Assembly: GCA_903929755.1 (NCBI GenBank)
Contig: CAIYVZ010000022.1
Coordinates: forward strand, 1-64,000
Length of the DNA: 64,000 bases
Reading direction: 5' to 3'
Source: an uncultured Acidobacteriia bacterium
Lineage (GTDB): Bacteria > Acidobacteriota > Terriglobia > Bryobacterales > Bryobacteraceae
In this document: piece after piece, positions 3,760-50,704 of the stretch
How positions within the stretch are numbered: position 1 is the stretch's first letter
Layout of the letters: every line of letters begins with the position of its first letter
Made by a program: the position numbers and the translations under genes
The notes under the pieces: model-generated
Told to the model about the DNA's origin: nothing
Database searches by the model: none
What the model saw: the letters and a program-made list of their open reading frames with translations, nothing else

Positions 3760-3855
3760 GGAAGCCAATCCTGGCCGGTGCCGGGCCCGGACTTCAAACC
3801 CGGCGTGCGTCACGCGAGTGGCGCGGGTGGGTTCGACACCCACTGGCTTCCGCCA
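3760..3855 (+). tRNA. selC: Selenocysteine tRNA (anticodon UCA)
   Basis: A 96-nt tRNA including encoded CCA, with the long acceptor arm (GGAAGCC pairing with GGCTTCC), a long variable arm and the anticodon loop CTTCAAA with TCA, plus GGTTCGAC in the T arm. This is the classic bacterial tRNA-Sec layout and closely follows E. coli selC. The base pair closing the anticodon loop is A-C, as written. It implies that the organism makes selenoproteins, although selA, selB and selD are not in the window. Confidence 0.93.
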
Positions 3856-36251: not shown

Positions 36252-36725
36252 TTACCGTGCCGAGGTTACCCCGGCGGGGAACAACTCGCCAATCCTGGCC
36301 GCGCGATAGTCGAAAATCGCGGTCACGTCGCGCCGGACCATGAGCCAGTGGGCCAACTGGCCAAGTACGCCGCAGGGGAGCGCGTATTTCACCACGTCCT
36401 CCATCCAGGTTCCGCCGTCATGCTGGCGGAAGCGATGCGTGTGGTGCCAAAGCGCGTAAGGACCACTGGTTTGTGTATCGACGAAGCTTTTTGGGGAGTC
36501 CCAGCTCTCGATAGTGGTCTTCCATCGGACAGGAATTCCGTGGACCCGGATGGAATACTCGATCTTAGCCCCTGGTTTCATTTCGATCGGAGTTGGTGTC
36601 AGGATCTTGAAGTGGAGAAAAGCCGGTGTCAGGATTTGCAGATTCCGGGCGTCGGAAAACCAGTCAAAGATCTCGGTCAGGGGCCGGGGGATCAACGTCT
36701 TGCGCCGCAGTTCGTACACTTTCAT
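36252..36725 (-). CDS. SRPBCC family ligand-binding protein
   Basis: 157 residues with the START-like pattern: IPRPLTEIFDWFSDARNLQILTP near the start, a mid-region strand GIPVRWKTTIESW, and GGTWMEDVVKYALP towards the end. SRPBCC folds make a deep hydrophobic pocket, which suits a fatty-acid or lipid intermediate here. Fifth gene of the minus arm; its start overlaps the stop of the CFA-synthase-like gene by 4 nt. Function is inferred only. Confidence 0.75.
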   Translation of the reverse strand: MKVYELRRKTLIPRPLTEIFDWFSDARNLQILTPAFLHFKILTPTPIEMKPGAKIEYSIRVHGIPVRWKTTIESWDSPKSFVDTQTSGPYALWHHTHRFRQHDGGTWMEDVVKYALPCGVLGQLAHWLMVRRDVTAIFDYRAARIGELFPAGVTSAR

Positions 36726-37984
36726 TGTCGGGACCCGACCACTTCACGTGCGTATGTCCCGCCGACACTGACGCCGGGATCTCCGGGCATCCACCGCACA
36801 TTATTGTTCTTTGTCATGACCAGTTGGACATCGCCGATATGCCGTTCGCGGAATGCGGCCTCACAGTAGGCGAGATAGTAATCCCAGGTCCGCATGAAAC
36901 GGTCATCGAAACCCAGTTTCCGGACTTCGTCTTCCCGTTCACGGAAACGCTTACGCCACTCCGCCAGGGTCAGCGCGTAATGAATGCCAATATCTTCCAG
37001 ATGCAGTAGTGACATCTTTGTGGCACGCTGCAGAGAAGCCAGAATCTCTTTGACCGAAGCCAGTTCCGCGCCGGGGAAGATCCGCTTCTGGATCCAGTCA
37101 CTACCTTTTTGATATGCCGCGAATTTCTGTTCGTTCATGGTGATAGCCTGCATGGCCATGGCGCCATCGGGCTTCAATAAGCGGTTGCAGGCACTGAAGA
37201 ACTCGTCATAATGGTCCAGGCCAACCGCCTCAAACATCTCGACGCTCACGATGCGGTCATACTGGCCAGTCAGTTTTCGGTAGTCCTCAAAAAGCAGTTC
37301 AATGCGGCCACCGGCGCTTGATCGTGCAAATGCCTCCTGGGCTCCTTCAAACTGCTGGCGACTAATGGTGGTGGTGGTGACGCGGCATCCGTAGACTTCC
37401 GCGGCATGGAGCGCCATCGCGCCCCACCCGGTTCCGATTTCCAGCAGATGATCGCCCGGTTGCAAACCTAACTTGCGGCAAAGCCGGTCAATCTTCTCCA
37501 TCTGCGCGGCTTCGAGTGTAGTCTCTTCCCGTTCGTAGACCGCGGATGAATAGACCATGCGCGTATCGAGGAACAACCGGAAGAAATCGTTACTCAGGTC
37601 ATAGTGCTCATGGATATTTCGCCTGGAACCCTCCACCGTGTTGTCTCGTCGCAAGTGCGCCAGCCGGTTTAGTATCCGACTGACAAACGACGTCAGCCGA
37701 TTTCCCTGTTCCAGCGAATCCAGATTCCGGATCGCAAAGCGAACCACCGCGACGGGATCGGCGGAAGTCCAAAGCCCATCCACGTAAGCGTCGCCCGCGC
37801 CATCCTCGCCACCTGAGACCAGTTTCCAGTAGAAGCTTGGGTCCTGCACGGTGACCTCGGCTCGGAGGTCGCTTGACGGGTCGCCAAAGAGCTGGGAATC
37901 GGAGCCATCCGTCCAGCGAAGCGACCCGTGTCGCATCTGCTCCATATTCTTCAGAAAAGCGCTGCGCGCCAGATTCTTCTTCAT
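36722..37984 (-). CDS. Cyclopropane-fatty-acyl-phospholipid synthase family protein
   Basis: 420 residues from the ATG at 37984, which overlaps the DUF1365 stop by ATGA; further in-frame sequence upstream belongs to the DUF1365 gene. The SAM-binding motif LEIGTGWGAMALHAA and the family segments HYDLSNDFFRLFLD and MFEAVGLDHYDEFF are clear. CFA-type enzymes transfer a methylene or methyl group from SAM to unsaturated acyl chains in phospholipids. Other relatives make methyl-branched or furan fatty acid precursors. Fourth gene of the arm; product not determinable. Confidence 0.9.
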   Translation of the reverse strand: MKKNLARSAFLKNMEQMRHGSLRWTDGSDSQLFGDPSSDLRAEVTVQDPSFYWKLVSGGEDGAGDAYVDGLWTSADPVAVVRFAIRNLDSLEQGNRLTSFVSRILNRLAHLRRDNTVEGSRRNIHEHYDLSNDFFRLFLDTRMVYSSAVYEREETTLEAAQMEKIDRLCRKLGLQPGDHLLEIGTGWGAMALHAAEVYGCRVTTTTISRQQFEGAQEAFARSSAGGRIELLFEDYRKLTGQYDRIVSVEMFEAVGLDHYDEFFSACNRLLKPDGAMAMQAITMNEQKFAAYQKGSDWIQKRIFPGAELASVKEILASLQRATKMSLLHLEDIGIHYALTLAEWRKRFREREDEVRKLGFDDRFMRTWDYYLAYCEAAFRERHIGDVQLVMTKNNNVRWMPGDPGVSVGGTYAREVVGSRQ

Positions 37985-38748
37985 GGTGTTTGCTCTTTTC
38001 TGCCCGGATGAGTAAATACGGGGACTTTCTTTAGCCAAAGCCGCAGGGCTTCCCAATGGATGGCGACGACCACTTTCGCCGTCATGGCAGGATGGGCGAG
38101 CAGCGTGCGGAACAGCTCGCCCGATGTCCAGGGACTACGTTCCAGGGTCAGGGTGGCATCGAACAACGGGGCACCGCCATCGACGGTTTCCATGTGGGCT
38201 GTGAGCGTCTGGCCCGGTGCGGTCAGGGCAAACTCATACCCCAATTCCATGGGCATGAACGGCGAAACATGCATGGTCTTGGCGCACGAGAACCGGAGTC
38301 CGGTCCCGCTGGTGCGATTGCCCGCCCAGAGCCAGTAGTTCTTGTGCTCGCCAAAGGTGCTGTTCACCTCAGCCAGGATGACAGGCACGTTTCCTTGTTC
38401 GTCCAGGAAATAAAAAAACGAGATTGGGTTGAAGCAGTAGCCCAGATAGCGGAGATTCGTCAGCAGCATCACAGGCCCAACCGGGAGCGTAACGCCCTCG
38501 GCTTTCGCCGCCGCAGTAAGCCGTTCGCGCAAAGGAACACGCGGATCCCCGAAATGATCACGATCTTCGAAGCTTGCCCAGTTGAGTCGGTTATACCCGG
38601 AGAAAACAGACCTCGCCATGGTCTCCGGAATCCGGTCAACGTCAAGCATTGCCATAAAGACCGGATACTGAAACTCGTGCGCACGCGGCCTGAAGCGGCG
38701 GTGCCGGAGGGTGCCGCGATAGATTCCAGGCTCGGCGATCGCTACCAT
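37981..38748 (-). CDS. DUF1365 family protein
   Basis: 255 residues from the ATG at 38748, which overlaps the stop of the FAD oxidoreductase gene. Family marks are YRGTLRHRRFRPRAHEFQYPVFMAMLD at the start, NPISFFYFLDEQGN in the centre and KTMHVSPFMPM. DUF1365 proteins almost always sit beside an amine-oxidase-like FAD enzyme and a CFA-type enzyme; their role is unknown, presumably in acyl-chain modification. The start is chosen by overlap and family length. Confidence 0.88.
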   Translation of the reverse strand: MVAIAEPGIYRGTLRHRRFRPRAHEFQYPVFMAMLDVDRIPETMARSVFSGYNRLNWASFEDRDHFGDPRVPLRERLTAAAKAEGVTLPVGPVMLLTNLRYLGYCFNPISFFYFLDEQGNVPVILAEVNSTFGEHKNYWLWAGNRTSGTGLRFSCAKTMHVSPFMPMELGYEFALTAPGQTLTAHMETVDGGAPLFDATLTLERSPWTSGELFRTLLAHPAMTAKVVVAIHWEALRLWLKKVPVFTHPGRKEQTP

Positions 38749-39995
38749 CTGACTCCCATCTGGTCCGCGACTCTGACGGCTGAGCGCAGACCGTCTTCGT
38801 GGAACCCGTAGAACCACCAGGCCCCGCAATAATGGATCCGGTCGGTACCGCTGATGTCCGCCCAGCGCTGCGCTGCCTTCACCGCCGGGACATTGTAGAC
38901 CGGATGGTGATACTCCAGCCTCTCGATCACCTTGCCCGGTTTAACAGCTCCAGCGGAATTCAGACTTACACAATATTGGTCGCCGGCCGGAAGAGACTGC
39001 AGGCGATTCATGTCATAGGTCATAGTGGCCTTTGTTCCGTCGCCGATCCGGTAGTTCCAGGATGCACGCGCGGCCTTCCGCTGTGGCAGCAGCGTTTCGT
39101 CAGTGTGCAGGCAGACTTCGTTCCTCGAGGTCTGGAAATTCTGGAGGATACTCTGTTCCTGGGAAGTAGGGGTCTTCAGCAACGGGAGGATCTGATTTCC
39201 ATGGCAGGCGAAAACCACTTCGTCGAACAGCATGGCGGGTCTGGCCTGAAACTCCACTTCGACCTTGTTTTCTGTTCTGGACACAGCCCGAATGCCGGCA
39301 TTCAGAATGATCCGTTCGCGATAGGGCGCAGTTAGCGGCTTAAGGTATGTGTCACTGCCGCCGGTGACTGTTTTCCACTGGGGATGGGTATTGAGCCCCA
39401 GCATGCCGTGGTTCCGGAAGAAGGCGAGTAAGGTTTGGGCAGGAAAGCCGGCCAGTTCCTGCTGCGGCATGGACCAGACGGCGGATGACATCGGATAGAG
39501 GTATTGTGCGATAAAGTACTTGCTGTATTTGCCCCGCCGGAGGAACTCGCCCAATGTGACTTCCAGATCCGCGGGACCTTCCACGAACTTCGGAGCTTCG
39601 CGATTGAAGCGGATGATCTCCTGCAAGAGGCGGTAGTGTGCGGGCCGCAGCCAGTTCCTTCGCTGAGCAAAGAAGCCGGATAACCCGCGGCTTGAGTACT
39701 CGAACTTCCCGGCTTCCGAACTAACGCCGAACGACATGTCGCTGTTCTGCGTCGCCACTCCCAACTCCTGCATCAGGCGGCAGAACAGCGGATAGGTTTT
39801 CTCGTTGTGCACGATAAAGCCGGTATCGACGGGCAGAGTACCGCCGGAAGTGGGTACTTTTGCGGTGTTGGTGTGGCCGCCAATGCGATTCTCTCGTTCC
39901 AGCAACCAGACCTCGTACTTCCTGCTCAGGAAATACGCGGCGGCCATGCCCGAGATGCCGCCGCCGATCACCGCGATTTTCTTCTTCCCCGTCAC
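38742..39995 (-). CDS. FAD-dependent oxidoreductase (amine-oxidase-like)
   Basis: 417 residues with an N-terminal dinucleotide-binding motif IAVIGGGISGMAAAYFLS followed by LLERENRIGGHTNT, characteristic of the flavin amine oxidase and phytoene desaturase superfamily. A C-terminal FAD-contacting segment GAWWFYGFHEDGLRSA is present. In related clusters this enzyme oxidises methylated acyl chains of phospholipids; that role is by analogy. It overlaps the desaturase by ATGA and DUF1365 by seven bases. Confidence 0.9.
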   Translation of the reverse strand: MTGKKKIAVIGGGISGMAAAYFLSRKYEVWLLERENRIGGHTNTAKVPTSGGTLPVDTGFIVHNEKTYPLFCRLMQELGVATQNSDMSFGVSSEAGKFEYSSRGLSGFFAQRRNWLRPAHYRLLQEIIRFNREAPKFVEGPADLEVTLGEFLRRGKYSKYFIAQYLYPMSSAVWSMPQQELAGFPAQTLLAFFRNHGMLGLNTHPQWKTVTGGSDTYLKPLTAPYRERIILNAGIRAVSRTENKVEVEFQARPAMLFDEVVFACHGNQILPLLKTPTSQEQSILQNFQTSRNEVCLHTDETLLPQRKAARASWNYRIGDGTKATMTYDMNRLQSLPAGDQYCVSLNSAGAVKPGKVIERLEYHHPVYNVPAVKAAQRWADISGTDRIHYCGAWWFYGFHEDGLRSAVRVADQMGVRW

Positions 39996-40819
39996 TCCGA
40001 CTCCAGTTTTGGCACCGACTCCAGTTTGCGGAACGGGCGCAGATTTCGAGTCAGGCCCACCCAGCTAAAAGCCTTCAGCAAGTACCACGTGGTGTCTACT
40101 TCCCACCACCGCAGACCCTGCCGGCAACTCCCTGGCGAAAAATGATGATTGTTGTGCCAGCCTTCACCCATCGTAATTACCGCCAGGAGTGCATTATTTC
40201 GCGAATAATCCGGCGTGTCAAAGCGACGCCCTCCCCAGATGTGCCCCACTGAATTGATACTGAACGTGCCGTGGTACAGCACCACCGTGGAAGCCACATA
40301 TCCCCAGAAGAAGCCAGGCCAGCCGGTGAGCGCCAGAATAACTGCGGCAAATACCACGGTCGGTACCAGATGATATCGATTCAGCCACACCAGTTCCGGG
40401 AACTTCGTAAAGTCCGCCATCGCTCTTTCATCAAAACCATCGTGCTCATTGGACAGGACCCAGCCCACGTGGGACCACCAGAAACCCTGCTGCCAGGGCG
40501 AATGGATGTCCCGCTCCCGGTCCGATTCCCGGTGGTGGACCCGATGGTGCGCAGCCCACCACAAGGCGCCTTTTTGACCAGAGGTTTGTGCCAAAAACGC
40601 CATCAGGAACTGCGCCACCCGCCCCAGGCGGTAGCTTCGATGGCTGAAATATCGGTGATATCCCGCAGTGACGCCAAACATTCGCAGGAAGTAAGTGAAA
40701 GCCAGCAGTGCGGCACTCCCCCAGGTCCATGGCACAAACAAAACCCCAAGCGCCGCCACATGTAGCCCGGCAAACGCCAGAACTGCGCCCCACTGATATT
40801 CGGAATTGGCTTTCATCAT
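39992..40819 (-). CDS. Fatty acid desaturase (acyl-CoA delta-9 type)
   Basis: 275 residues with membrane segments and the three di-iron histidine boxes: HRYFSH (55-60), HRVHH (92-96) and HNNHH near residue 225. This is the pattern of the acyl-CoA delta-9 desaturase family, which introduces a cis double bond into saturated chains using oxygen. First gene of the minus arm, so it would make the unsaturated substrate needed by the two CFA-family enzymes. ATG at 40819 is followed by a second in-frame ATG. Confidence 0.93.
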   Translation of the reverse strand: MMKANSEYQWGAVLAFAGLHVAALGVLFVPWTWGSAALLAFTYFLRMFGVTAGYHRYFSHRSYRLGRVAQFLMAFLAQTSGQKGALWWAAHHRVHHRESDRERDIHSPWQQGFWWSHVGWVLSNEHDGFDERAMADFTKFPELVWLNRYHLVPTVVFAAVILALTGWPGFFWGYVASTVVLYHGTFSINSVGHIWGGRRFDTPDYSRNNALLAVITMGEGWHNNHHFSPGSCRQGLRWWEVDTTWYLLKAFSWVGLTRNLRPFRKLESVPKLESE

Positions 40820-40830
40820 CCCTTGCCTTT

Positions 40831-40859
40831 ACGTTACGGATCTTCTTGTGGATTGTCAA
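40831..40859 (-). promoter_or_regulatory. Predicted promoter of the desaturase operon
   Basis: Minus strand: -35 TTGACA (complement of 40854-40859), 17-bp spacer, then TAACGT as a weak -10 (3 of 6). It faces away from the regulator promoter, with the palindrome just upstream of the -35 box. Confidence 0.45.
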
Positions 40860-40862
40860 TCT

Positions 40863-40877
40863 TTTGTCCTGGACAAA
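40863..40877. promoter_or_regulatory. Perfect 15-bp palindrome, probable operator
   Basis: TTTGTCC-T-GGACAAA, perfect 7-bp arms, centred between the two divergent TTGACA boxes at 3 bp from one and 4 bp from the other. Placed so that a dimer or tetramer of the MerR-type regulator could block or bend both promoters. Binding is inferred. Confidence 0.65.
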
Positions 40878-40880
40878 TCA

Positions 40881-40909
40881 TTGACACAATCTATTCTTCC
40901 CGCTACCAT
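40881..40909 (+). promoter_or_regulatory. Predicted sigma-70 promoter of the regulator operon
   Basis: TTGACA (40881-40886), 17-bp spacer, TACCAT (40904-40909), 11 bp before the regulator start codon. Perfect -35 box, 4 of 6 for -10. The short leader leaves little room for a ribosome-binding site. Confidence 0.6.
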
Positions 40910-40920
40910 TTAATTGGGAA

Positions 40921-41820
40921 ATGGAACCGCATTACCCAATCCGGACGGCTGCGCGGCTCACCTCGCTTAGCGTGGATACGCTCCGGGCCTGGGAGCGACG
41001 CTACCAGGCAGTAACTCCGGAGCGAACCAATCGCGGTCGTCTTTACACCAAAGACAACATCGCGAAGCTGATCCTGCTCCGCAGACTGGTTGAACAGGGT
41101 TACACGATTGGTCAAATCGCCCCTCTCGGCCCTGCGGACCTGCAGGATCTGCTCGCTCCGGCGCCAATTTCAGAACCCACATCCTCTGCGGCTAATCTGC
41201 AAATCTGCCAACTGGCGCAGTGGTTCGCCGATTTCGACGACATACGGGCTAACGCTGAACTGAACAGGCTCGCCATTCTGACGCCTCCTCGTGATTTTGT
41301 TATGCAAACACTCTTCCCATTGATGCGGGAAGTTGGCGAGCGGTGGCACAAAGGCGAAATTGGAATTGCGGAAGAACATTTGGTCTCCGCTTCTATGCGT
41401 TTGCTGCTTGGTTCGCTGATCAGGCTTCACCCTCCGCGTCCGGACTCACCTCGCATGTTGCTGGCGACGCTCTCGGGCGATCAGCATGATTTTGGGATTA
41501 TTGCAGCCGCGATGATTGCCGCCACCCTTGGTTGGTCGCCACTCCTGCTGGGACCGAATCTTCCGGTTGGCGAAGTGGCTCGTGCAGTGGCCCGAACCAG
41601 GCCCGCAGCTGTGGTGATTGGGAACAGCGGCCGCAAGCTGGAAGCGCCGGCGCTCTGCGAACTTGCGGAGTTGCTGCCTCCCGCCGTGGCTATTTGGCTG
41701 GGCGGGCCCTTACCGGATCAATCGAAATCCATGCTGCCGACATCTATCGTACTAGCGGGTACCATGGAAACTTTCGAAAAATTGTGCGTTGAGGCTCTGC
41801 CCTGGAGCAGAAAAGTATGA
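40921..41820 (+). CDS. B12-binding MerR-family photoreceptor regulator (CarH/LitR type)
   Basis: 299 residues. The N-terminal MerR winged-helix contains IRTAARLTSLSVDTLRAWERRYQAV. The cobalamin part shows the CarH signature W-x9-EH, with W142 and E152-H153, and D-x-H-x-x-G with His189 and Gly192. These are the residues that in CarH hold adenosylcobalamin and the His ligand after photolysis. CarH tetramers repress in the dark and fall apart in light. Therefore this is most likely a light-controlled repressor of its own and the divergent operon. Starts plus-strand arm; overlaps the next gene by ATGA. Confidence 0.9.
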   Translation: MEPHYPIRTAARLTSLSVDTLRAWERRYQAVTPERTNRGRLYTKDNIAKLILLRRLVEQGYTIGQIAPLGPADLQDLLAPAPISEPTSSAANLQICQLAQWFADFDDIRANAELNRLAILTPPRDFVMQTLFPLMREVGERWHKGEIGIAEEHLVSASMRLLLGSLIRLHPPRPDSPRMLLATLSGDQHDFGIIAAAMIAATLGWSPLLLGPNLPVGEVARAVARTRPAAVVIGNSGRKLEAPALCELAELLPPAVAIWLGGPLPDQSKSMLPTSIVLAGTMETFEKLCVEALPWSRKV

Positions 41821-42152
41821 AGATTTTGCTGAAGCTGCTGGCGGCCGGGATCAGTGTGTTCATGCTGACAGTCACCGTTCGCACCAGTATGGAGGCTAGC
41901 CTGTGGTCGGCGTGGCCCGCATATGCGGCAAGCCCCTGGGCGATGGCCACGTTTTGGGATGCGTACTCCGGGTTTACCCTGTTCTGGGTTTGGATTGCCT
42001 TCCGCGAACGGAGTTGGGGTGTCCGTATTCTCTGGCTGGTTCTGGTGTACGCGCTGGGCAATATTGCCACGGCCGCTTACCTCTTCGTGGCATTGCACCA
42101 GCTCCGGCCGGAACAGCCCGCGTCCGATGTACTAGTCCGGCGGCCCCTATGA
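41817..42152 (+). CDS. Small membrane protein (DUF1475-like)
   Basis: 111 residues with about three hydrophobic segments. The pattern of W followed by PWAMATFWDAYSGF and then LGNIATAAYLFVALHQL resembles DUF1475, a family of unknown function. The ATG lies in the stop codon of the regulator and its own stop overlaps the DUF2062 start, so it is cotranslated. Its role in the lipid cluster is unknown. Confidence 0.6.
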   Translation: MKILLKLLAAGISVFMLTVTVRTSMEASLWSAWPAYAASPWAMATFWDAYSGFTLFWVWIAFRERSWGVRILWLVLVYALGNIATAAYLFVALHQLRPEQPASDVLVRRPL

Positions 42153-42610
42153 TCCGCCCTCTCCGCAAGGTTCTGGACTCCGTTATTGCGCTGCTTCGGC
42201 AAGGCACCAGCCCGGAGGAAATTGCTCGCGCCACCGCTCTGGCGGGAGTACTGGCGGTATTCCCGGTGCTGGGGTCCACCACCCTGCTGTGCGCCGGAGC
42301 GGCAGCCTGGTTTCGGCTGAACCTTCCCTTAATGCAGCTGGTGAACTTTCTTTTGTACCCGATACAGCTGGCGTTGCTGATTCCTTTCATGAGTGTCGGG
42401 ACCCGGTTGTTTGGTCTGCCGGCGCTACCGGGGCTTACCCAGCTTGTGAAGCTGGTGGCGACGGATCCGTTGGTGGCCATCCGGGTTTTCTGGCCAGCTA
42501 CGCTGAGCGGGATCGGTACCTGGCTGGTGCTCAGTCCGATTATTGCGGTCGTTATATACGCCACGATTCTCTTTCCGCTCCGGCGGTTCAGCCCTGGGGT
42601 GTCTTCATGA
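42149..42610 (+). CDS. DUF2062-like membrane protein
   Basis: 153 residues from the ATG at 42149, overlapping the upstream stop. The pattern GTSPEEIARATALAGVLAVFPVLGSTTLL, then RLNLPLMQLVNFLLYPIQ, is that of DUF2062 membrane proteins. Contains two or three predicted membrane segments. Function unknown; the family often lies near lipid or glycan enzymes. The longer frame reaching back to 41903 overlaps the previous gene and is not used. Confidence 0.65.
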   Translation: MIRPLRKVLDSVIALLRQGTSPEEIARATALAGVLAVFPVLGSTTLLCAGAAAWFRLNLPLMQLVNFLLYPIQLALLIPFMSVGTRLFGLPALPGLTQLVKLVATDPLVAIRVFWPATLSGIGTWLVLSPIIAVVIYATILFPLRRFSPGVSS

Positions 42611-43398
42611 GCGTTTTGGCTCTTCTCGGGTGGGGGACGGTGTTGACTGCTGTCCTGATGTTCGCGCTTTGGCTACTCCACTTTCCCATGCGGAACGCTG
42701 CGATTGTCGATTTTGGCTGGGCGGCGGGACTAGCGCTGCTCGGTGGATTCTATGCCGTTTTCGCGGGCGGGGACCCTGTGCGATCCGCTCTTATCGGGGG
42801 GATGTCGGTTATTTGGGGTCTGCGGCTCGCTTTTCACCTGCTGTTTGACCGGATCGTCGGGCACCCGGAAGAAGGCCGGTATCAGGAGCTCCGCCGCGTG
42901 TGGAAGACGAATTTGGGGGCAAAATTTCTGGCGTTCTACCTGTTTCAGGGCCTGCTGGACGTGGCCCTGTCGGCACCGTTTCTTCTGGCTGCGCGTAATT
43001 CGACGCCGGATCTTTCTCCTCTTGAAATATCTGCAGCAGTTCTATGGCTGGCTGCCGTTTTGGGGGAAAGTTGGGCGGATCGGCAACTGGCCGCATTCAA
43101 AGCTCGCCCCCTGAGCAAAGGCAAGACCTGCCGGGCAGGCCTGTGGCGCTACTCGCGACATCCCAACTACTTTTTTGAGTGGCTGATTTGGGTGGCCTTT
43201 GCGATGTTCGCACTGGCCTCGCCATACGGGTATCTCGGCCTGATTTCGCCAGCGCTAATCCTCTACTTCCTGCTTCGCGTAACCGGTATCCCGGCTACTG
43301 AAGCCCAGGCGCTCCGGAGCCGCGGGGACGAATACCGCGAATATCAACGCACTACCAGTGCTTTTATCCCCTGGTTTTCCAAGGCGGTTTCCAAATGA
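42607..43398 (+). CDS. DUF1295 (steroid-reductase-like) membrane protein
   Basis: 263 residues from the ATG at 42607, overlapping the DUF2062-like stop by ATGA. Several membrane segments and the C-terminal signature GLWRYSRHPNYFFEWLIW, typical of DUF1295 and related to steroid 5-alpha-reductase and isoprenylcysteine methyltransferase folds, which bind NADPH or SAM. A membrane reductase acting on acyl chains is plausible here. Proteins of this family are often found beside CFA-type enzymes. Confidence 0.8.
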   Translation: MSVLALLGWGTVLTAVLMFALWLLHFPMRNAAIVDFGWAAGLALLGGFYAVFAGGDPVRSALIGGMSVIWGLRLAFHLLFDRIVGHPEEGRYQELRRVWKTNLGAKFLAFYLFQGLLDVALSAPFLLAARNSTPDLSPLEISAAVLWLAAVLGESWADRQLAAFKARPLSKGKTCRAGLWRYSRHPNYFFEWLIWVAFAMFALASPYGYLGLISPALILYFLLRVTGIPATEAQALRSRGDEYREYQRTTSAFIPWFSKAVSK

Positions 43399-44441
43399 AC
43401 TGGTACGAACCCATTCTTGAGCGTGGCATTCTGCCAGACTGGATGCTCCGGCGAGCGATTCGCTATCTTTGCGGAACTCGCCTGAAGGACGAGATGGCGG
43501 GGGGCGCGTCCGCAATCCAGAATCGCCTTTCGGCGCTGGTGGCCGAACTCAGGCAGAGTCCGATTGCGCTAAACACGGCGGATGCGAACCGCCAGCATTA
43601 CGAAGTTCCCGCAGAGTTCTTCAAGCTGGCGCTGGGCCCGCATTTGAAGTACAGTTCGTGCTATTTCCCGGAGGGGGTGGAGACGCTCGCCGATTCCGAA
43701 AAGGCTATGCTCGAACTCACTTGTACTCGCGCGCGGTTGGCGGAGGGTCAGGATGTTCTGGAGCTTGGCTGCGGCTGGGGTTCGCTCTCGCTGTACATGG
43801 CGGAGCAATTTCCGAATTCGCGGATTACCGGCGTCTCGAATTCGGCTTCGCAGCGTGAGTACATCATGGAGCAGGCGAAAGCGCGCGGTCTGGGGAATCT
43901 GCGGATTGTTACGGCCGACATGAATGAATTCTCGCCTGGTGTTACCTGCCATTTCGACCGGGTTGTCTCGGTAGAAATGTTTGAGCATATGCGGAATTAT
44001 CAGGAACTGCTTCGCCGCATCTCCACCTGGCTGAAACCGGACGGGCTGCTTTTTGTGCATGTCTTTGCACATAAGACCGTTGCCTATCCCTTCGTCGCGC
44101 AGGGCTCCGGAGACTGGATGGCGGAGCATTTCTTCACGGGCGGGATTATGCCGAGCGCCGGTCTGATCCCGGTATTTCAGCGGGATATGTGGCTGGTGAG
44201 CCAGTGGGACATCAATGGCGGTCACTACCAGCGGACCTCCGAAGCGTGGCTTCTCAATACGGATCAACACAGGGAAGAGATCCTCGGTCTTTTCTCGAAG
44301 GTGTATGGAGAACGGGAAGCCTTGCGGTGGCTGGTTCGGTGGCGCGTTTTCTTTCTGGCGTGCGCCGAGTTATTCGGCTACAACGAAGGTACGGAGTGGA
44401 TTGTCTGCCACTACCTGTTTGAGAAACCCCGCGAGGCGTAA
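43395..44441 (+). CDS. SAM-dependent methyltransferase, CFA-synthase family (second copy)
   Basis: 348 residues. The SAM motif VLELGCGWGSLSLYMA, the acceptor-side segment NRQHYEVPAEFFKLALGPHLKYSSCYF and VVSVEMFEHMRNYQELL match the CFA-synthase superfamily. It differs from the 420-residue copy in the minus arm and lacks that protein's N-terminal region, so it may methylate rather than cyclopropanate. Last gene of the plus arm; overlaps the DUF1295 stop by 4 nt. Confidence 0.85.
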   Translation: MNWYEPILERGILPDWMLRRAIRYLCGTRLKDEMAGGASAIQNRLSALVAELRQSPIALNTADANRQHYEVPAEFFKLALGPHLKYSSCYFPEGVETLADSEKAMLELTCTRARLAEGQDVLELGCGWGSLSLYMAEQFPNSRITGVSNSASQREYIMEQAKARGLGNLRIVTADMNEFSPGVTCHFDRVVSVEMFEHMRNYQELLRRISTWLKPDGLLFVHVFAHKTVAYPFVAQGSGDWMAEHFFTGGIMPSAGLIPVFQRDMWLVSQWDINGGHYQRTSEAWLLNTDQHREEILGLFSKVYGEREALRWLVRWRVFFLACAELFGYNEGTEWIVCHYLFEKPREA

Positions 44442-45138: not shown

Positions 45139-46719
45139 CTACGCCAAAATCCCCTTAACTACTTCGGCCTTTTCCACGCCAGTGAGGCGCACGTTCAAGC
45201 CCTGGTACCGATAGCTGAACTTCTCGTGGTCGATGCCGAACTGATGCAGGATGGTCGCCTGGAAATCACGGACATGGACCGGATCGCGCACGATGTTATA
45301 GCTGAAGTCGTCGGTTTCCCCGTGGACCACACCGCCCTTGATCCCGCCACCCGCCATCCATAAGCTGAAGCAGCGCGGATGATGATCGCGACCGTAGTCT
45401 GTGGGCGTTAACTTACCCTGCGAGTAAATGGTGCGGCCGAATTCGCCGGCCACGATGACGAGCGTGTCGTCCAGCATGCCGCGTTGTTTCAGATCCTGCA
45501 CCAGCGCCCACGCCGGCTGATCGATTTCTTTGCACTGCGCCGGTAAGACTTCCGGCAGGTTGCCGTGGACGTCCCACCCGCGGTGATAGACCTGCACGAA
45601 GCGCACACCGCGCTCAGACAACCGGCGCGCCATCACGCAGGTATGCGCAAAAGACCCGGGCTTCTCCTTCGCATCCTTGCCGTACATCTGCCAGGTGCTT
45701 TCCGGCTCTTTACTCAGGTCAGTGAGTTCCGGGACGGATGCCTGCATCCGGAACGCCATTTCGTACTGCGCGATGCGGGTCTTGGTTTCCGGATCGCCCA
45801 GCTTGTCGTAGGTCATCTGGTTCATCTCAGACAACCCATCCAGCATGGACCGCCGCACTTCCGTCGGCACGCCATCCGGGTTATTGATGAACAGCACCGG
45901 ATCACCCGCACTCCGCAGGCCGACGCCGGAGTACTTACCCGACAGGAAGCCCGCGCTCCACAACCGGGCCGAGATCGCCTGCACGTTCGCCTTCGGATGA
46001 TAGTGCTTGGCCTGCAGCACCACAAACGACGGCAGATTCTCATTCATGCTGCCCAGACCATAACTCAGCCAGGAACCGATACAGGGCCGCCCGGCAATCA
46101 TGAAGCCAGTTTGAAAGAAGGTAATAGCCGGTTCGTGGTTGATGGCATCCGTATTCATGGAGCGGATGATGGCGATATCATCCACCATCTTCGCCGTGTA
46201 AGGGAGTAACTCGGAAACCCAGGCACCGGACTTCCCATACTGGTCAAAGGTGAAGATGGAGGGCGCGATGGGGAAGCGACTCTGGCCGCTGGTCATAGTG
46301 GTGAGCCGCTGACCCTGCCGGATGGAATCAGGCAGATCCTTGTCGAACATGTCCTTCATCTTCGGCTTATAATCGTAGGTCTCCAGTTGGGGTGGCGCGC
46401 CGACCAGGTGCAGATAGATGACGCGCTTTGCCTTCGCCGGAAAGTGCGGCAGGCCACTCATGGTACCGAATGCCTTGTCCGGAGCAGGCCCGGCACCCAG
46501 CGCATTTCGTCCAGTCAGGGAGGCGAGCGCCAACGCGCCGATACCCTGCGCCCCACGAGAAAAGAAGCGTCGCCGAGTTTCTTCAGCCGCCATCCGGTGT
46601 GCGATGCCATCCAGAGGATGCCGCCCCGCCGCAAGCCGCTTCAACGACTCGCGGTCTGCCTGGTGAGCCAGTGCCGAGTAATGCCCTTCAGCGTCGGGAG
46701 CCAGTAAATTTCGCTTCAT
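45139..46719 (-). CDS. DUF1501 family exported protein
   Basis: 526 residues. A twin-arginine signal lies after an unusual 50-residue leader: [23 protein letters not shown]1501 segments include [19 protein letters not shown], a [12 protein letters not shown] segment and GEFGRTI near the end, with sulfatase-like metal site residues. It is encoded as the second gene after PSD1, with a 4-nt overlap. The pair is a conserved module in Planctomycetes, Acidobacteria and Verrucomicrobia; substrate unknown. Confidence 0.88.
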
Positions 46720-49700
46720 TTGTTCAGCACCTCATCCAGATTCAGCATCTGGTTCGTCAACATGGTGAGCGCGGCGTAATCCGCCTGCTTCAGGGATGGA
46801 TCGGCCTTGCGTTCGCCTTGCGCCAGGAACTTAGCCGCATCCGCTTCGTGGGACGCGTAATAGGTTCGGAAATTCGTAAAAGACTTCCTGGCGATGGTGC
46901 GTTCTTTAACTGCCAAAGGTCGGGACAGGACGCGCGTGGTGATGAAATCCAGCTGAGTTTCCAGATCCGCCGATGTCTGCATGGCACGGCCTGCAATTTC
47001 GCGTGCGGCCTCCACGAACTGGATGTCGTTCATGGTGACCAGCGCCTGCAGCGGGGTATCGGTCCGCTCTCGCCGCACCGTGCAACTTTCGCGGGTGGGA
47101 GCATTGAAGATTTCCATACTGGCCGGTGGCGCGCTGCGTTTCCAGAACGTGTACATGGTCCGGCGGTATAAGCCATTGCCCACGTCAGGCTTGTAATAGC
47201 GGGTGTTGGAACCGTCCATTGCAACGGCTTCCCAGACACCCTCCGGCTGATACGGGCGGACACTTGGACCGCCGATCTGCGGGGATAACAGCCCGGTCGC
47301 AGCCAGCGCATAATCCCGAACCATCTCGCCATCCAGCCGGAAGCGAACGCCACGGCTCAGCAAGCGATTCTCGGGGTCCTTCTCCAGTTTCAGCGGGGTT
47401 GTAGCCGCTATTTGACGGTAGGTTGCGGACAGGAGGATCTGTTTGTAGAACCGCTTCATATCCCAGCCGTTTTCGCGGAAATCGACGGCGAGCCAGTCGA
47501 GCAATTCTTTGTGCGTGGGCGGTTCACCCTGGCTGCCGAAATCTTCGGCAGTCTTTGTCAGGCCGATGCCGAAAATCTCCTGCCACATACGATTCGCGGC
47601 GAGCCGCGACGTGAGAGGGTGTTCCTCGGTGAAGAGCCACTGCGCCAGGCCGAGCCTGTTGCGAGGCATGGAGGATGTCATCGGGGGCAGAATCGAAGGA
47701 GTTCCGGCTTCCACTTCTTCGCGCCGCTGATCATACGCCCCGCGAAACAGGACCCAGGCATGCGGTTTTGCGTCGGCACGTTCTTCCATTACCAGCGAAA
47801 CCGCACCGCGCCGGGCGATGGTTTTTGCTTCCGTGTTTAGCGTGTTCTGCTCGGTAACCAGTTGCTTTACAGGGGCATACTCGCGGGCCAGATACCACTT
47901 GAGCAAAGCTTCGCGCGCGGCGGGCGCTGGTGTCGCGGTGGGCTCGGACTCCAGTGCCAGCGAGATGGCGGGCCATTCGCTGATGGTCCGGGCTTCACTC
48001 TCGCTCACTTCGCGGTTGAAGATTCGGAGATCGGCAATGGCGCCATCAGCCAGATTCTTGCCCAGGATGAGGGGCGTTTCCACGCCGATATCGCCATTCA
48101 GGTCCTGCACCACATTGCCGCGACCCTGCGTGGGAATCGCGCGGCCGTTGATGTACATCCCGAGGCCGGCTTGCCGCCGTGAGCCGTCGTAGGTGGCGAC
48201 AATCGTGTTCCACGTGCCCTGCTTCAGTTGCTCCAGATGCGCGGCGCGGACATCAATGCTGCGGCCCCCATCGCCGATCAGCCGGAGCGCGGCCACCCGC
48301 GCGCCAATCTCCAGTGACCAGCCGCGATTCTTTTCTTTCGGATTCGTATGCGCGGCAATCGTGTAACCTTGCTCGGCTTTCGGGAAGAAGAACGCGGCCG
48401 CGATGGTGAAGGGCTTGTCGGCGTCCAGCTTCGGAGCGTCCTTTACTTCCACGCCCTCATTCTTCTGGAAGTGCAGCGCTTTGCGGCCCGCGATGTTGGA
48501 ATCAATCAGGTTCGCCGATTTTGCGTCCGTGGCGGCAGCCAGAATGTCCACGGCCAGCAACTGCGCCTTCTCTTCAAGGGGGCTGTCCGCCTTCAGTTTT
48601 TGGCGCCGGGAGAGCCACTGTCCGAACTCAGCATCGGCATCTTTCGCAGCCTGCGCGAGGCTTGTCCGAATCGCCGCAAGCCGGGCCTGCGTCTTCGCCC
48701 AGGCATCTCGATCGTCGGGCTTCGGCACCACCACTACAGGTGGCGTATCCGGCACATTATCATCCATCACGCGCTGCGTCGTATTGCGGAAGAACGCGCC
48801 CAGCCCGTAGAAATCCTTCTGCGTGATGGGGTCGAACTTGTGGTTGTGGCACGTTGCGCAGCCGGTGGTCAGGCCAAGGTAGATGGCGCTGACCGTCTCT
48901 GCCCTGTCCTTGGCATAGATCTCGGCGTATTCGTCTTCAATCAGCCCGGCTTCGTTGGTGGTTACACCGCAGCGGATGAAGCCGGTGGCAATCTTCTGGT
49001 CCAGCGTGGAACCTGGCAGCAAGTCCCCCGCCAGTTGTTCGGTGCTGAAGCGGTCATAGGGCACATTTCGGTTGTACGCCTGAATGACCCAGTCGCGATA
49101 GGGCCAGATCTCACGATAGTTATCGACGTGGATGCCGTGGGTATCTCCATAACGTGCCGCGTCCAGCCAGTAGCGGCCGCGGTGTTCGCCGAAGTGTGGC
49201 GACGCCAGGTAGTGATCGACCATGTTCTCGTAGGCCTTTGGCGTCAGGTCTTTCACGAACAGGTCCAGTTCGGCGGGGGTGGGTGGTAGCCCGGTCAGAT
49301 CCAGAGCCACTCGCCGGATCAACGTTCTTTTATCCGCAGCTGCGGCGGGTTCGAGGCCCAGCGGTTCCAGCTTCGCCAGAATGAAGCGGTCAATAGGATT
49401 GCGCGCCCACAGCGTATTCTTTACCGCCGGTAACGGCGCTTTCACGGGTGCCGTATAGGCCCAGTGCTCCACGAACGGCGCGCCCTGCTCAATCCAGAGC
49501 TTCACTCTGGAAATCTGGGCTGACGTGAGCGACTTATGCGAGTAGGTGGGAGGCATCCGCCGGGCTTCGTTGGTCTCGGCAATGCGCTGGTACAGCTTAC
49601 TCTCAGCGGGTTTCCCCACGACAATTACGCCAGGGCCGAGCAGACTGTCTTTCAGGTCCAGGCGCAAGCCCGCCATACGTGTGCCCTGGTCGGGACCATG

Positions 49701-49814
49701 GCACTGGAAGCAGTTGTCAGAGAGGACAGGCCGGATCTCCCGCTGGAAATCTACCTTTTGTGCCTGCAGCAGACCAACGGCGGAGGCACACAACACAAGC
49801 CAGCTTAAACGCAT
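46716..49814 (-). CDS. PSD1 and planctomycete cytochrome C domain protein (DUF1549/DUF1553)
   Basis: 1032 residues from the ATG at 49814, with signal peptide [17 protein letters not shown]. Order: a haem-binding CFQCH with planctomycete cytochrome domain, DUF1549 with a second CATCH motif, a LamG-like sandwich in the middle, and DUF1553 at the C terminus. A longer frame reaching 49910 runs into the divergent rhodanese gene and is rejected. Periplasmic, perhaps redox-linked with DUF1501. Natural substrate unknown. Confidence 0.9.
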
Positions 49815-49864
49815 AAGTAGAGTTGATTTTATACTGTTTGTGCTGCCCGCGCTAGACTCGGAAA

Positions 49865-50704
49865 ATGACGACGCCTCTGGTGGAAGCCGCCTGGCTCCTG
49901 GAACACTCAAACGACAGTGATGTGCGGGTGGTGGATACGCGATTCACTCTCGGTAAACCCGATCAGGGGCGGGCGGTATTTGACGCGGGCCACATTCCAG
50001 GCGCGGTGTTTGTTGATCTGGAGCGCGATTTGAGTGCGCAGGTGCGTCCGGACCGCGTTGGCGGGCGGCACCCGATTCCGGCGGTTGAGCGTCTGCAGGC
50101 CGTCTTTGCGCGACTGGGGATATCCAACCGGCACCAAGTTGTCGCTTATGACGATCCCTCAACCGGTGCCGGGTTTTACGGGCCGCACTTGTGGTGGCTG
50201 CTGCGGTATCTGGGGCACGACCAGGTTTCTGTTCTCAATGGCGGACTGCCTGCCTGGCTCGCGGCGGGTGGCTCGCTGGAAACGGAACAGCGCGTCTACC
50301 CACCGGCTGCGTTCCATGCGCAACTTCGGCCCGAGATGATCGTGGATGCGAACGCTGTGCAGGCGAGGTCACAGGCCGCGGTTCTTCTGGACTCCCGCGC
50401 TCCGGAACGTTATTGGGGGGACGTGGAACCTCTTGACTGGAAAGCCGGCCACATCCCCGGCGCCATCAATGCGAACTGGGCGGAAGGGCTTCGCGACGGG
50501 TTCTGGAAATCGGCTGAAGCGCAGAAGGCACGTTTCCCTGAGACCGAGGAACTCATCGTGTATTGCGGCAGCGGCGTCAGTGCAGCAGGCAACCTGCTGG
50601 CAATGGAACTGGGCGGCATTACCCACGCGAAGCTCTATCCGGGCAGTTGGTCGGACTGGATCAGCGACGACACGCGTCCGGTTGAGACATCACTTCCGGA
50701 CTAA
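49865..50704 (+). CDS. Sulfurtransferase (thiosulfate/3-mercaptopyruvate type)
   Basis: 279 residues with two rhodanese domains. The first has RVVDTRFTLG and AGHIPGAVFVDLERDL; the second holds the active-site Cys234 in CGSGVSA, close to the CG(S/T)GVTA loop of 3-mercaptopyruvate sulfurtransferases. Moves sulfane sulfur to acceptors such as cyanide or thiols. Its 3' end overlaps the convergent LamG gene by 15 bp. Confidence 0.9.
   Translation: MTTPLVEAAWLLEHSNDSDVRVVDTRFTLGKPDQGRAVFDAGHIPGAVFVDLERDLSAQVRPDRVGGRHPIPAVERLQAVFARLGISNRHQVVAYDDPSTGAGFYGPHLWWLLRYLGHDQVSVLNGGLPAWLAAGGSLETEQRVYPPAAFHAQLRPEMIVDANAVQARSQAAVLLDSRAPERYWGDVEPLDWKAGHIPGAINANWAEGLRDGFWKSAEAQKARFPETEELIVYCGSGVSAAGNLLAMELGGITHAKLYPGSWSDWISDDTRPVETSLPD

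Follow-up and report, generated by a model that had tools for sequence, protein, structure and literature searches.

Furan fatty acids (FuFAs) are made in Rhodobacter sphaeroides and Rhodopseudomonas palustris by UfaM, a member of the cyclopropane fatty acid synthase (CFA) family, together with UfaD, UfaO (DUF1365) and FufM, which yield mono- and dimethyl FuFAs, and the methylation of a furan acid by R. palustris FufM has been shown experimentally (PMC7380195; here and below, statements on published work refer to the available parts of the cited papers). For CarH, a B12-based light sensor, motifs of the Wx9EH and DxHxxG kind are given as defining (PMC8156234) and GxxW, EH, GxxH and GxxxP are reported as the light signature (PMC11796333), and in Pseudomonas a class II LitR, believed to lack B12 binding, governs genes that light induces, ufaM among them (PMC9758184). 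We report that in 64,000 nucleotides of DNA from an uncultured Acidobacteriia bacterium (contig CAIYVZ010000022.1, positions 1 to 64,000; hereafter the window) a CarH-type regulator gene and genes of all four FuFA enzyme types stand together in a cluster of ten genes (36252-44441), and we consider it probable that this locus is a light-gated FuFA regulon under CarH.

The cluster, whose bounds are both outer gene ends, consists of two divergent five-gene operons separated by a gap of 101 bp. Each of the eight junctions within the arms is an overlap (4 bp in seven cases, 7 bp in the eighth), and none of the ten genes has an internal stop. An earlier note on this DNA had described a divergent ten-gene cluster with fully overlapping arms and had proposed lipid-chain modification under a B12-type light sensor; all the genes were found, with the families as named, and the enzyme families and CarH motifs support the proposal. 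Gene starts were revised to 38748 (ATG) for ufaO, 37984 for ufaM, 42149 (ATG) for the DUF2062 gene and 42607 for the DUF1295 gene.

The CarH-type regulator and its putative operator

The regulator gene (40921-41820, + strand) encodes MerR helix-turn-helix, B12-binding_2 and B12-binding domains, with PF13411 and PF02607 above cut-off, and the best solved kin of the protein are the CarH structures 3whp and 5c8d (E 2e-24, aligned over residues 5-247). The Wx9EH motif reads WHKGEIGIAEEH and the [DE]xHxxG motif DQHDFG, and the light-signature motifs are present as GERW at 139, EH at 152, GDQH at 186 and GPNLP at 211; judged by its sequence, the regulator carries both of the published CarH light-signature motif sets that were checked. 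A regulator without B12 binding had been named in the earlier note as an observation that would refute its proposal, and at this level the motifs are in place. An adenosyltransferase gene is present in the same genome. A class II LitR, with one four-helix B12 domain, does not fit the match to a second B12 domain or the cobalt-ligand motif. With Mesorhizobium sigE and chrR as queries, phmmer gave no match anywhere in the window.

The gap between the arms holds a palindromic putative CarH operator of 34 bp (40853-40886; TTGTCAA-TCT-TTTGTC-CTG-GACAAA-TCA-TTGACA) with four half-sites, in which two TTGTC half-sites at 11-bp spacing stand opposite two in inverted orientation. The -35 boxes of both divergent promoters coincide with the outer half-sites: the promoter predicted for the carH arm (40881-40909, + strand) has TTGACA at 40881-40886, a 17-bp spacer and the -10 box TACCAT at 40904-40909, and that predicted for the desaturase arm (40831-40859, - strand) has TTGACA at 40859-40854, a 17-bp spacer and a weak -10 box, TAACGT, at 40836-40831. 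Across 22 carH divergons, the match to TATAAT in the carH arm has a clear peak at the 17-bp spacer (mean 3.36 of 6; next 2.36). The 11-bp spacing, the T and ACA positions and the overlap with the -35 box match, by eye, what is described for CarH operators, but the second consensus position and the all-tandem arrangement do not. The predicted promoters leave about five bases of leader ahead of both first genes (40819 and 40921), which suggests near-leaderless transcripts.

The window operator agrees with the palindrome at 25 of 25 fixed positions (0 in 100 shuffles of the window). Because the palindrome core was defined from carH divergons, the scoring of loci (63 in total) is not independent: the 22 carH divergons reach 18-25 of the 25 positions, 20 of them at least 21, with a maximum of 15-18 in shuffles (200 each), and the 39 loci without a carH match above 100 bits have a best palindrome of 13-18 across their whole length. 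Three of the 24 loci with such a carH match are without the palindrome, namely two of family f3 (14 and 15) and one in which carH is cut by a contig end (15).

Searching whole genomes is the fairer test. In the 6.86-Mb assembly to which the window belongs no second operator site was found when the half pattern was allowed up to 3 mismatches: the two matches are exact and both lie at the window operator, while three chance matches came from the reversed control. Allowing up to 2 mismatches, 200 genomes of the order gave 55 matches in 34 genomes, compared with 16 in 14 for the reversed control. The palindrome lies beside carH in all 12 genomes with an exact match and in 18 of the 20 whose match has at most 1 mismatch (11/12 and 17/20 if G211 is not counted as having carH, its gene being interrupted by masked sequence and scoring under the orthologue cut-off). 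Palindrome-like matches with one mismatch in G076 and G137 were taken as chance, since the stretches fetched there contain neither carH nor a FuFA gene. This operator, common to both arms and not part of the earlier note, is the stronger argument for their co-regulation.

Enzymes of the proposed furan fatty acid pathway

On the - strand, an acyl desaturase gene (39992-40819; PF00487, 5.5e-19), the proposed source of the monounsaturated chain, is accompanied by genes for a UfaD-type flavin adenine dinucleotide (FAD) oxidoreductase of the methylated-chain desaturase type (38742-39995; Amino_oxidase/NAD_binding_8), a UfaO-type DUF1365 protein of the furan-forming oxygenase type (37981-38748; PF07103, 2.7e-76) and a UfaM-type S-adenosylmethionine (SAM) methylase (36722-37984; PF02353, 1.8e-87). 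The + strand arm carries a DUF1295 membrane protein that is steroid 5-alpha-reductase-like (42607-43398; PF06966, 4e-63; Steroid_dh, 1.7e-7) and a FufM-type SAM methylase of the CFA family (43395-44441), predicted to add the second ring methyl.

For comparison we used five named Rhodopseudomonas genomes, R. palustris and close relatives but not strain CGA009, with gene neighbourhoods from four. A UfaO match was present in all five and a single strong FufM match in four; the fifth, R. rhenobacensis, has a best FufM match no stronger than 4e-16. The window proteins share 39-40% identity (UfaD, four genomes), 36-39% (UfaO), 36-38% (UfaM), 49-54% (FufM, four FufM-type genes) and 33-36% (DUF1295) with their Rhodopseudomonas counterparts, and FufM has 24-29% identity to the UfaM types and Escherichia coli CFA and 32-34% to an RPA3082-like paralogue. 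The Rhodopseudomonas gene orders, ufaD-ufaO-ufaM and DUF1295-fufM, fit RPA2571-2569 and RPA0923-0924, if RPA0923 is, as we infer, the DUF1295 gene; the window ufa genes are adjacent and in the same order. In the family-f1 loci that hold them, ufaD-ufaO and ufaO-ufaM are neighbours in 36 of 36 cases, and DUF1295 adjoins fufM in 51 of 56 loci examined, all of these loci having been chosen for a DUF1365 or FufM match; since both adjacencies recur, the clustering of the window genes is more than chance.

The E. coli CFA (MG1655) residues at positions 139, 239, 266, 268 and 317 were confirmed as C, E, H, I and Y, and we take Cys139, Glu239, His266 and Tyr317 to be the bicarbonate ligands. At these positions the window UfaM has S, E, Q, I and Y, and all 15 UfaM-type sequences in the alignment have EAVG and, at the five positions, S, C or A followed by E, Q, I and Y; in the same alignment, C, E, H, I and Y together with EHVG are found in E. 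coli CFA and in the RPA3082-like paralogue. Because two CFA bicarbonate ligands are lost, the window enzyme does not appear to be a canonical cyclopropane synthase and cyclopropane is an unlikely product. In a tree of 111 rows, computed by a quick method with SH-like approximate likelihood ratio test (SH-aLRT) support, the window UfaM falls within a starred 53-row clade with Rhodopseudomonas UfaM, and E. coli CFA and the RPA3082-like row fall outside it, both outsiders being long branches and the latter owing its 'ufaM' label solely to its best query. The window FufM lies in the FufM clade, which is separately starred. There are 13 CMAS matches in the genome, with scores of 295 and 142 for the two cluster genes and 44.7 bits, over a partial model, for the third; the cluster thus holds the only two strong CFA-type matches of the genome. 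In-frame stops had been flagged in four fufM matches of the survey; the three inspected (L205, L208 and L207) were a normal terminal stop.

Among solved structures UfaO matched none other than three polyketide-cyclase chains (E 0.12-0.15), its single-sequence AlphaFold2 model was unusable (predicted local distance difference test score 42), and no relatives in viral contigs were confirmed. In a 54-row alignment H16, R18, G103, N107, T131, Y138, K157, V161-S162-P163-F164, I230 and A234 are 100% conserved (T131 is missing from the invariant list of a 10-row alignment), and these residues are candidate active-site or structural positions of the predicted oxygenase. The earlier note had the DUF1365 family right and gave it no role; it is now placed with the UfaO oxygenase type. 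Of the three candidate products offered there, furan acids are favoured by the UfaO, UfaD, UfaM and FufM types, whereas cyclopropane acids do not fit the two changed CFA ligands.

The desaturase has the histidine boxes HRYFSH, HHRVHH and HNNHH and resembles the stearoyl-CoA desaturase structures 4zyo and 4ymk (E 4e-32 to 5e-32). The genome (98% complete) has three FA_desaturase genes and a single FabA-family gene, which is FabZ (TIGR01750, 196.9 bits; cut-off 155). As FabA was not found in a search restricted to the FabA family (PF07977) and FA_desaturase among the routes to unsaturation, unsaturated chains most likely come from desaturases in this genome, and the cluster desaturase would feed UfaM.

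The remaining cluster genes encode a SRPBCC (START-like) protein (36252-36725, - strand; PF03364, 22.2 bits with a cut-off of 23.4), which overlaps ufaM by 4 bp, a DUF1475 small membrane protein (41817-42152, + strand; PF07343, 3e-11), with a 4-bp overlap on each side, and a DUF2062 membrane protein (42149-42610, + strand; PF09835, 1.7e-9). The flanking genes (MotA/MotB and an enolase-superfamily gene on the left, DsrE-like and DUF1501 genes on the right) are unrelated to the cluster. A pair of DUF1501 and PSCyt1/DUF1549/DUF1553 genes lies beside it at 45139-49910, apparently unrelated as well, and ARAGORN called a selenocysteine tRNA at 3760-3855 of the window.

Occurrence in relatives and alternative explanations

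DUF1365 was found in 18 of 61 relatives, a patchy set. In a sample of 200 genomes, 51 have FufM, 26 a CarH orthologue and 24 both, with a hypergeometric P of 8e-15 that is overstated because the genomes are related. The family has 34 full FuFA clusters, 20 of them with carH at the locus, and the desaturase is present in 16 of these 20. G105, a genome with a full cluster lacking carH, has carH at a second ufa locus. In four loci without carH (L199, L205, L206 and L208) the start codons of the arms are, by eye, separated by only about 10 bases, too few to accommodate promoters. In family f3 of the order, eight loci have their genes in a single-direction operon; at six of these a CarH-like gene, more distant, follows downstream of fufM, and the palindrome is in none of the eight; in L029-L034 the operon runs desaturase-ufa-DUF2878-DUF1295-fufM and the downstream CarH-like gene keeps the motifs. 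In G067 (L259, 6398-9559) the palindrome lies between carH and a divergent DNA photolyase gene; there is no FufM match in this genome and no FuFA gene within 17 kb around carH, the search for ufaM, ufaD and ufaO having been limited to that stretch. Since G067 pairs the palindrome with photolyase, the operator family extends beyond furan genes, and this divergon gives independent support for a light role.

Several observations weigh against a light-gated FuFA regulon under CarH. The second B12 domain, PF02310, is matched below cut-off (E 6e-6; 26.5 bits, cut-off 32.1), as is the NCBIfam CarH model NF052513 (112 bits, E 2.5e-32; curated cut-off 400), and three of the 22 divergon carH genes are altered in signature residues (W to Y in L187, W to F in L191, DxHxxA in L043). 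The half-sites deviate at the second position from the CarH(Tt) consensus nAnnTnnACAn and are arranged with two facing two inverted ones instead of as a fully tandem array; the -10 box of the desaturase arm is poor (3/6), and its peak at 17 bp is marginal (2.86, with 2.68 at 15). In nine of the 26 genomes with carH the palindrome has no match with 1 mismatch or fewer, and of the 14 genomes in which the best match has 2 mismatches only four have it at carH, the rest being at chance level. Full FuFA clusters without carH at the locus number 14 of 34, so the pathway does not depend on light control. The desaturase is missing from four carH clusters and three desaturase clusters are without carH; as each occurs without the other, their pairing is loose. 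Finally, the identities of UfaM, UfaD and UfaO to the Rhodopseudomonas proteins reach only 36-40%. All three altered carH genes adjoin FuFA genes, and those of L191 and L043 retain a near-perfect palindrome despite the changed signature residue; light sensing may be fading or altered in such orthologues.

Three other explanations were weighed. That the CFA-family enzymes give cyclopropane or 10-methyl chains, with the remaining genes serving lipid housekeeping, would fit the Pfam CMAS matches of both methylases (NCBIfam CFA models being matched below cut-off) and the 35% identity of UfaM to E. coli CFA; we hold it to be very unlikely, since Cys139 and His266 are replaced by S and Q and EHVG by EAVG, as in the compared UfaM types, in positions that E. 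coli CFA and the RPA3082-like paralogue of R. palustris keep, and since UfaD and UfaO types are adjacent in every family-f1 locus having both. On the ligand residues, the tree and the neighbouring genes we rejected cyclopropane as a reading of the locus. A FuFA pathway whose regulator responds to cobalamin status or some signal other than light, or works in a light-blind, CarA-like mode, is quite unlikely. It draws on the missed curated cut-off, on the three orthologues with degenerate motifs and on CarA, a B12-independent relative that acts on the same operator as CarH (PMC8156234), and is opposed by the presence of GxxW, EH, GxxH and GxxxP (PMC11796333) together with Wx9EH, and by the palindrome that also faces a photolyase gene in a relative.

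The chemistry might also run past the furan or bypass it, the fifth enzyme being no furan methylase and DUF1295 reducing the diene or ring to give another branched lipid. The closest solved structures of FufM are of the coclaurine N-methyltransferase (CNMT) type, plant alkaloid N-methyltransferases (E 2e-79), DUF1295 has reductase-like kin and recurs beside fufM, and the available part of PMC7380195 gives the gene beside fufM no role. The identity of FufM to the Rhodopseudomonas FufM types, its place in one clade with them and the furan methylation shown for the R. palustris enzyme (PMC7380195) count the other way, and we regard this explanation as unlikely. A light-gated FuFA regulon under CarH is the preferred explanation.

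Proposed mechanism and comparison with known systems

In the dark, adenosylcobalamin-loaded CarH would sit on the 34-bp palindrome. As the -35 boxes of both promoters coincide with the outer half-sites, a single bound tetramer would silence both operons of five genes, carH included. Light would break the cobalt-carbon bond and release CarH from the DNA, and the two arms would be switched on together. The desaturase would place a cis double bond in a phospholipid acyl chain, UfaM would add a methyl group to the unsaturated chain, UfaD would form a conjugated methyl diene, UfaO would insert an O2-derived oxygen and close the furan ring, and FufM would add a second methyl, a step that DUF1295 probably serves. 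The SRPBCC protein, possibly a hydrophobic carrier, DUF1475 and DUF2062 would be accessory. The expected product is a mono- or dimethyl FuFA guarding against light-driven oxidative (singlet-oxygen) damage.

More tentatively, the locus could be a self-sufficient, B12-light-gated route that leads under one operator and in five enzyme steps from saturated membrane chains to dimethyl furan lipids. With no FabA found, a dedicated desaturase would set the double bond, and the product, formed only in light, would then be an undescribed furan acid (e.g. of the C17-C18 7M5/7D5 type, starting from a 16:1 delta-9 chain); DUF1295 would supply a sixth step, linked to FufM and so far unrecognised. We put this reading at somewhat below even. 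With a light-gated regulon of this kind, B12-based light sensing would reach beyond carotenoids into membrane chemistry, DUF1295 would be placed beside FufM as a testable pathway step, and the compact gene set and short operator would be useful for furan-lipid production or green-light control.

The FuFA pathway of R. sphaeroides and R. palustris shares with the window the four enzyme types and the order ufaD-ufaO-ufaM (PMC7380195), and DUF1295 directly precedes fufM in all four Rhodopseudomonas fufM loci fetched. In those bacteria, however, the FuFA genes are at separate loci and act on cis-vaccenate, and in R. sphaeroides they are induced by singlet oxygen and raised in a chrR mutant (PMC7380195), whereas in the window a single divergon unites all of them with a desaturase and a CarH of class I type. 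FuFA clusters linked to SigE-ChrR on Mesorhizobium and Shinella plasmids, and to sigma/anti-sigma genes in Burkholderia, likewise plasmid-borne, have like gene types and DUF1295-fufM pairs, but hold sigma/anti-sigma genes where the window has CarH, with no desaturase in the fetched stretches; ufaM was not found in the 15-kb Shinella stretch fetched. On a plasmid of Acinetobacter sp. WY4, desaturase-ufaD-ufaO-ufaM-DUF1295-fufM form a single run, in this case with an adjacent histidine kinase/response regulator, no CarH match and no palindrome (best 17/25). The earlier suggestion that a desaturase and a second CFA enzyme in one set may be new is not supported, as this run has both and R. palustris has a described FufM (PMC7380195). 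A Cupriavidus plasmid FuFA set adjoins TetR and photolyase genes, and one of Legionella lytica, without fufM, a photolyase gene. In Chlamydomonas, a eukaryote with another regulator, the SAK1 singlet-oxygen regulon has co-induced CFA-type, CNMT-type, DUF1365 and DUF1295 genes (PMC4067076), and Arabidopsis carries genes of matching families (PMC10940516). In Vibrio cholerae a CFA-annotated gene is induced by blue light, the overall light response requiring ChrR and a MerR protein (PMC5241685).

On the side of regulation, the Pseudomonas class II LitR regulon (PplR1/PmlR) likewise has a LitR/CarH-family repressor, ufaM with a FAD oxidoreductase gene, and an operator over the -35 box, but its regulator has one B12 domain, is the effector of a LOV photoreceptor and uses the operator TGTACA-N12-TGTACA (PMC9758184), whereas the window has both B12 domains with the ligand motifs and the half-site TTGTC. 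CarH of Thermus thermophilus and Bacillus megaterium agrees with the window regulator in domain plan, Wx9EH and B12 motifs, and in having half-sites at 11-bp spacing and an operator over the -35 box; its known targets are mainly carotenoid genes and its known operators 3 or 4 tandem repeats (PMC8156234), whereas the window palindrome is common to two divergent promoters. The open-access literature yielded no publication joining class I CarH to FuFA genes, and while the enzyme chemistry is of a known kind, the full gene assembly and the control of FuFA genes by a class I CarH through one common operator appear new.

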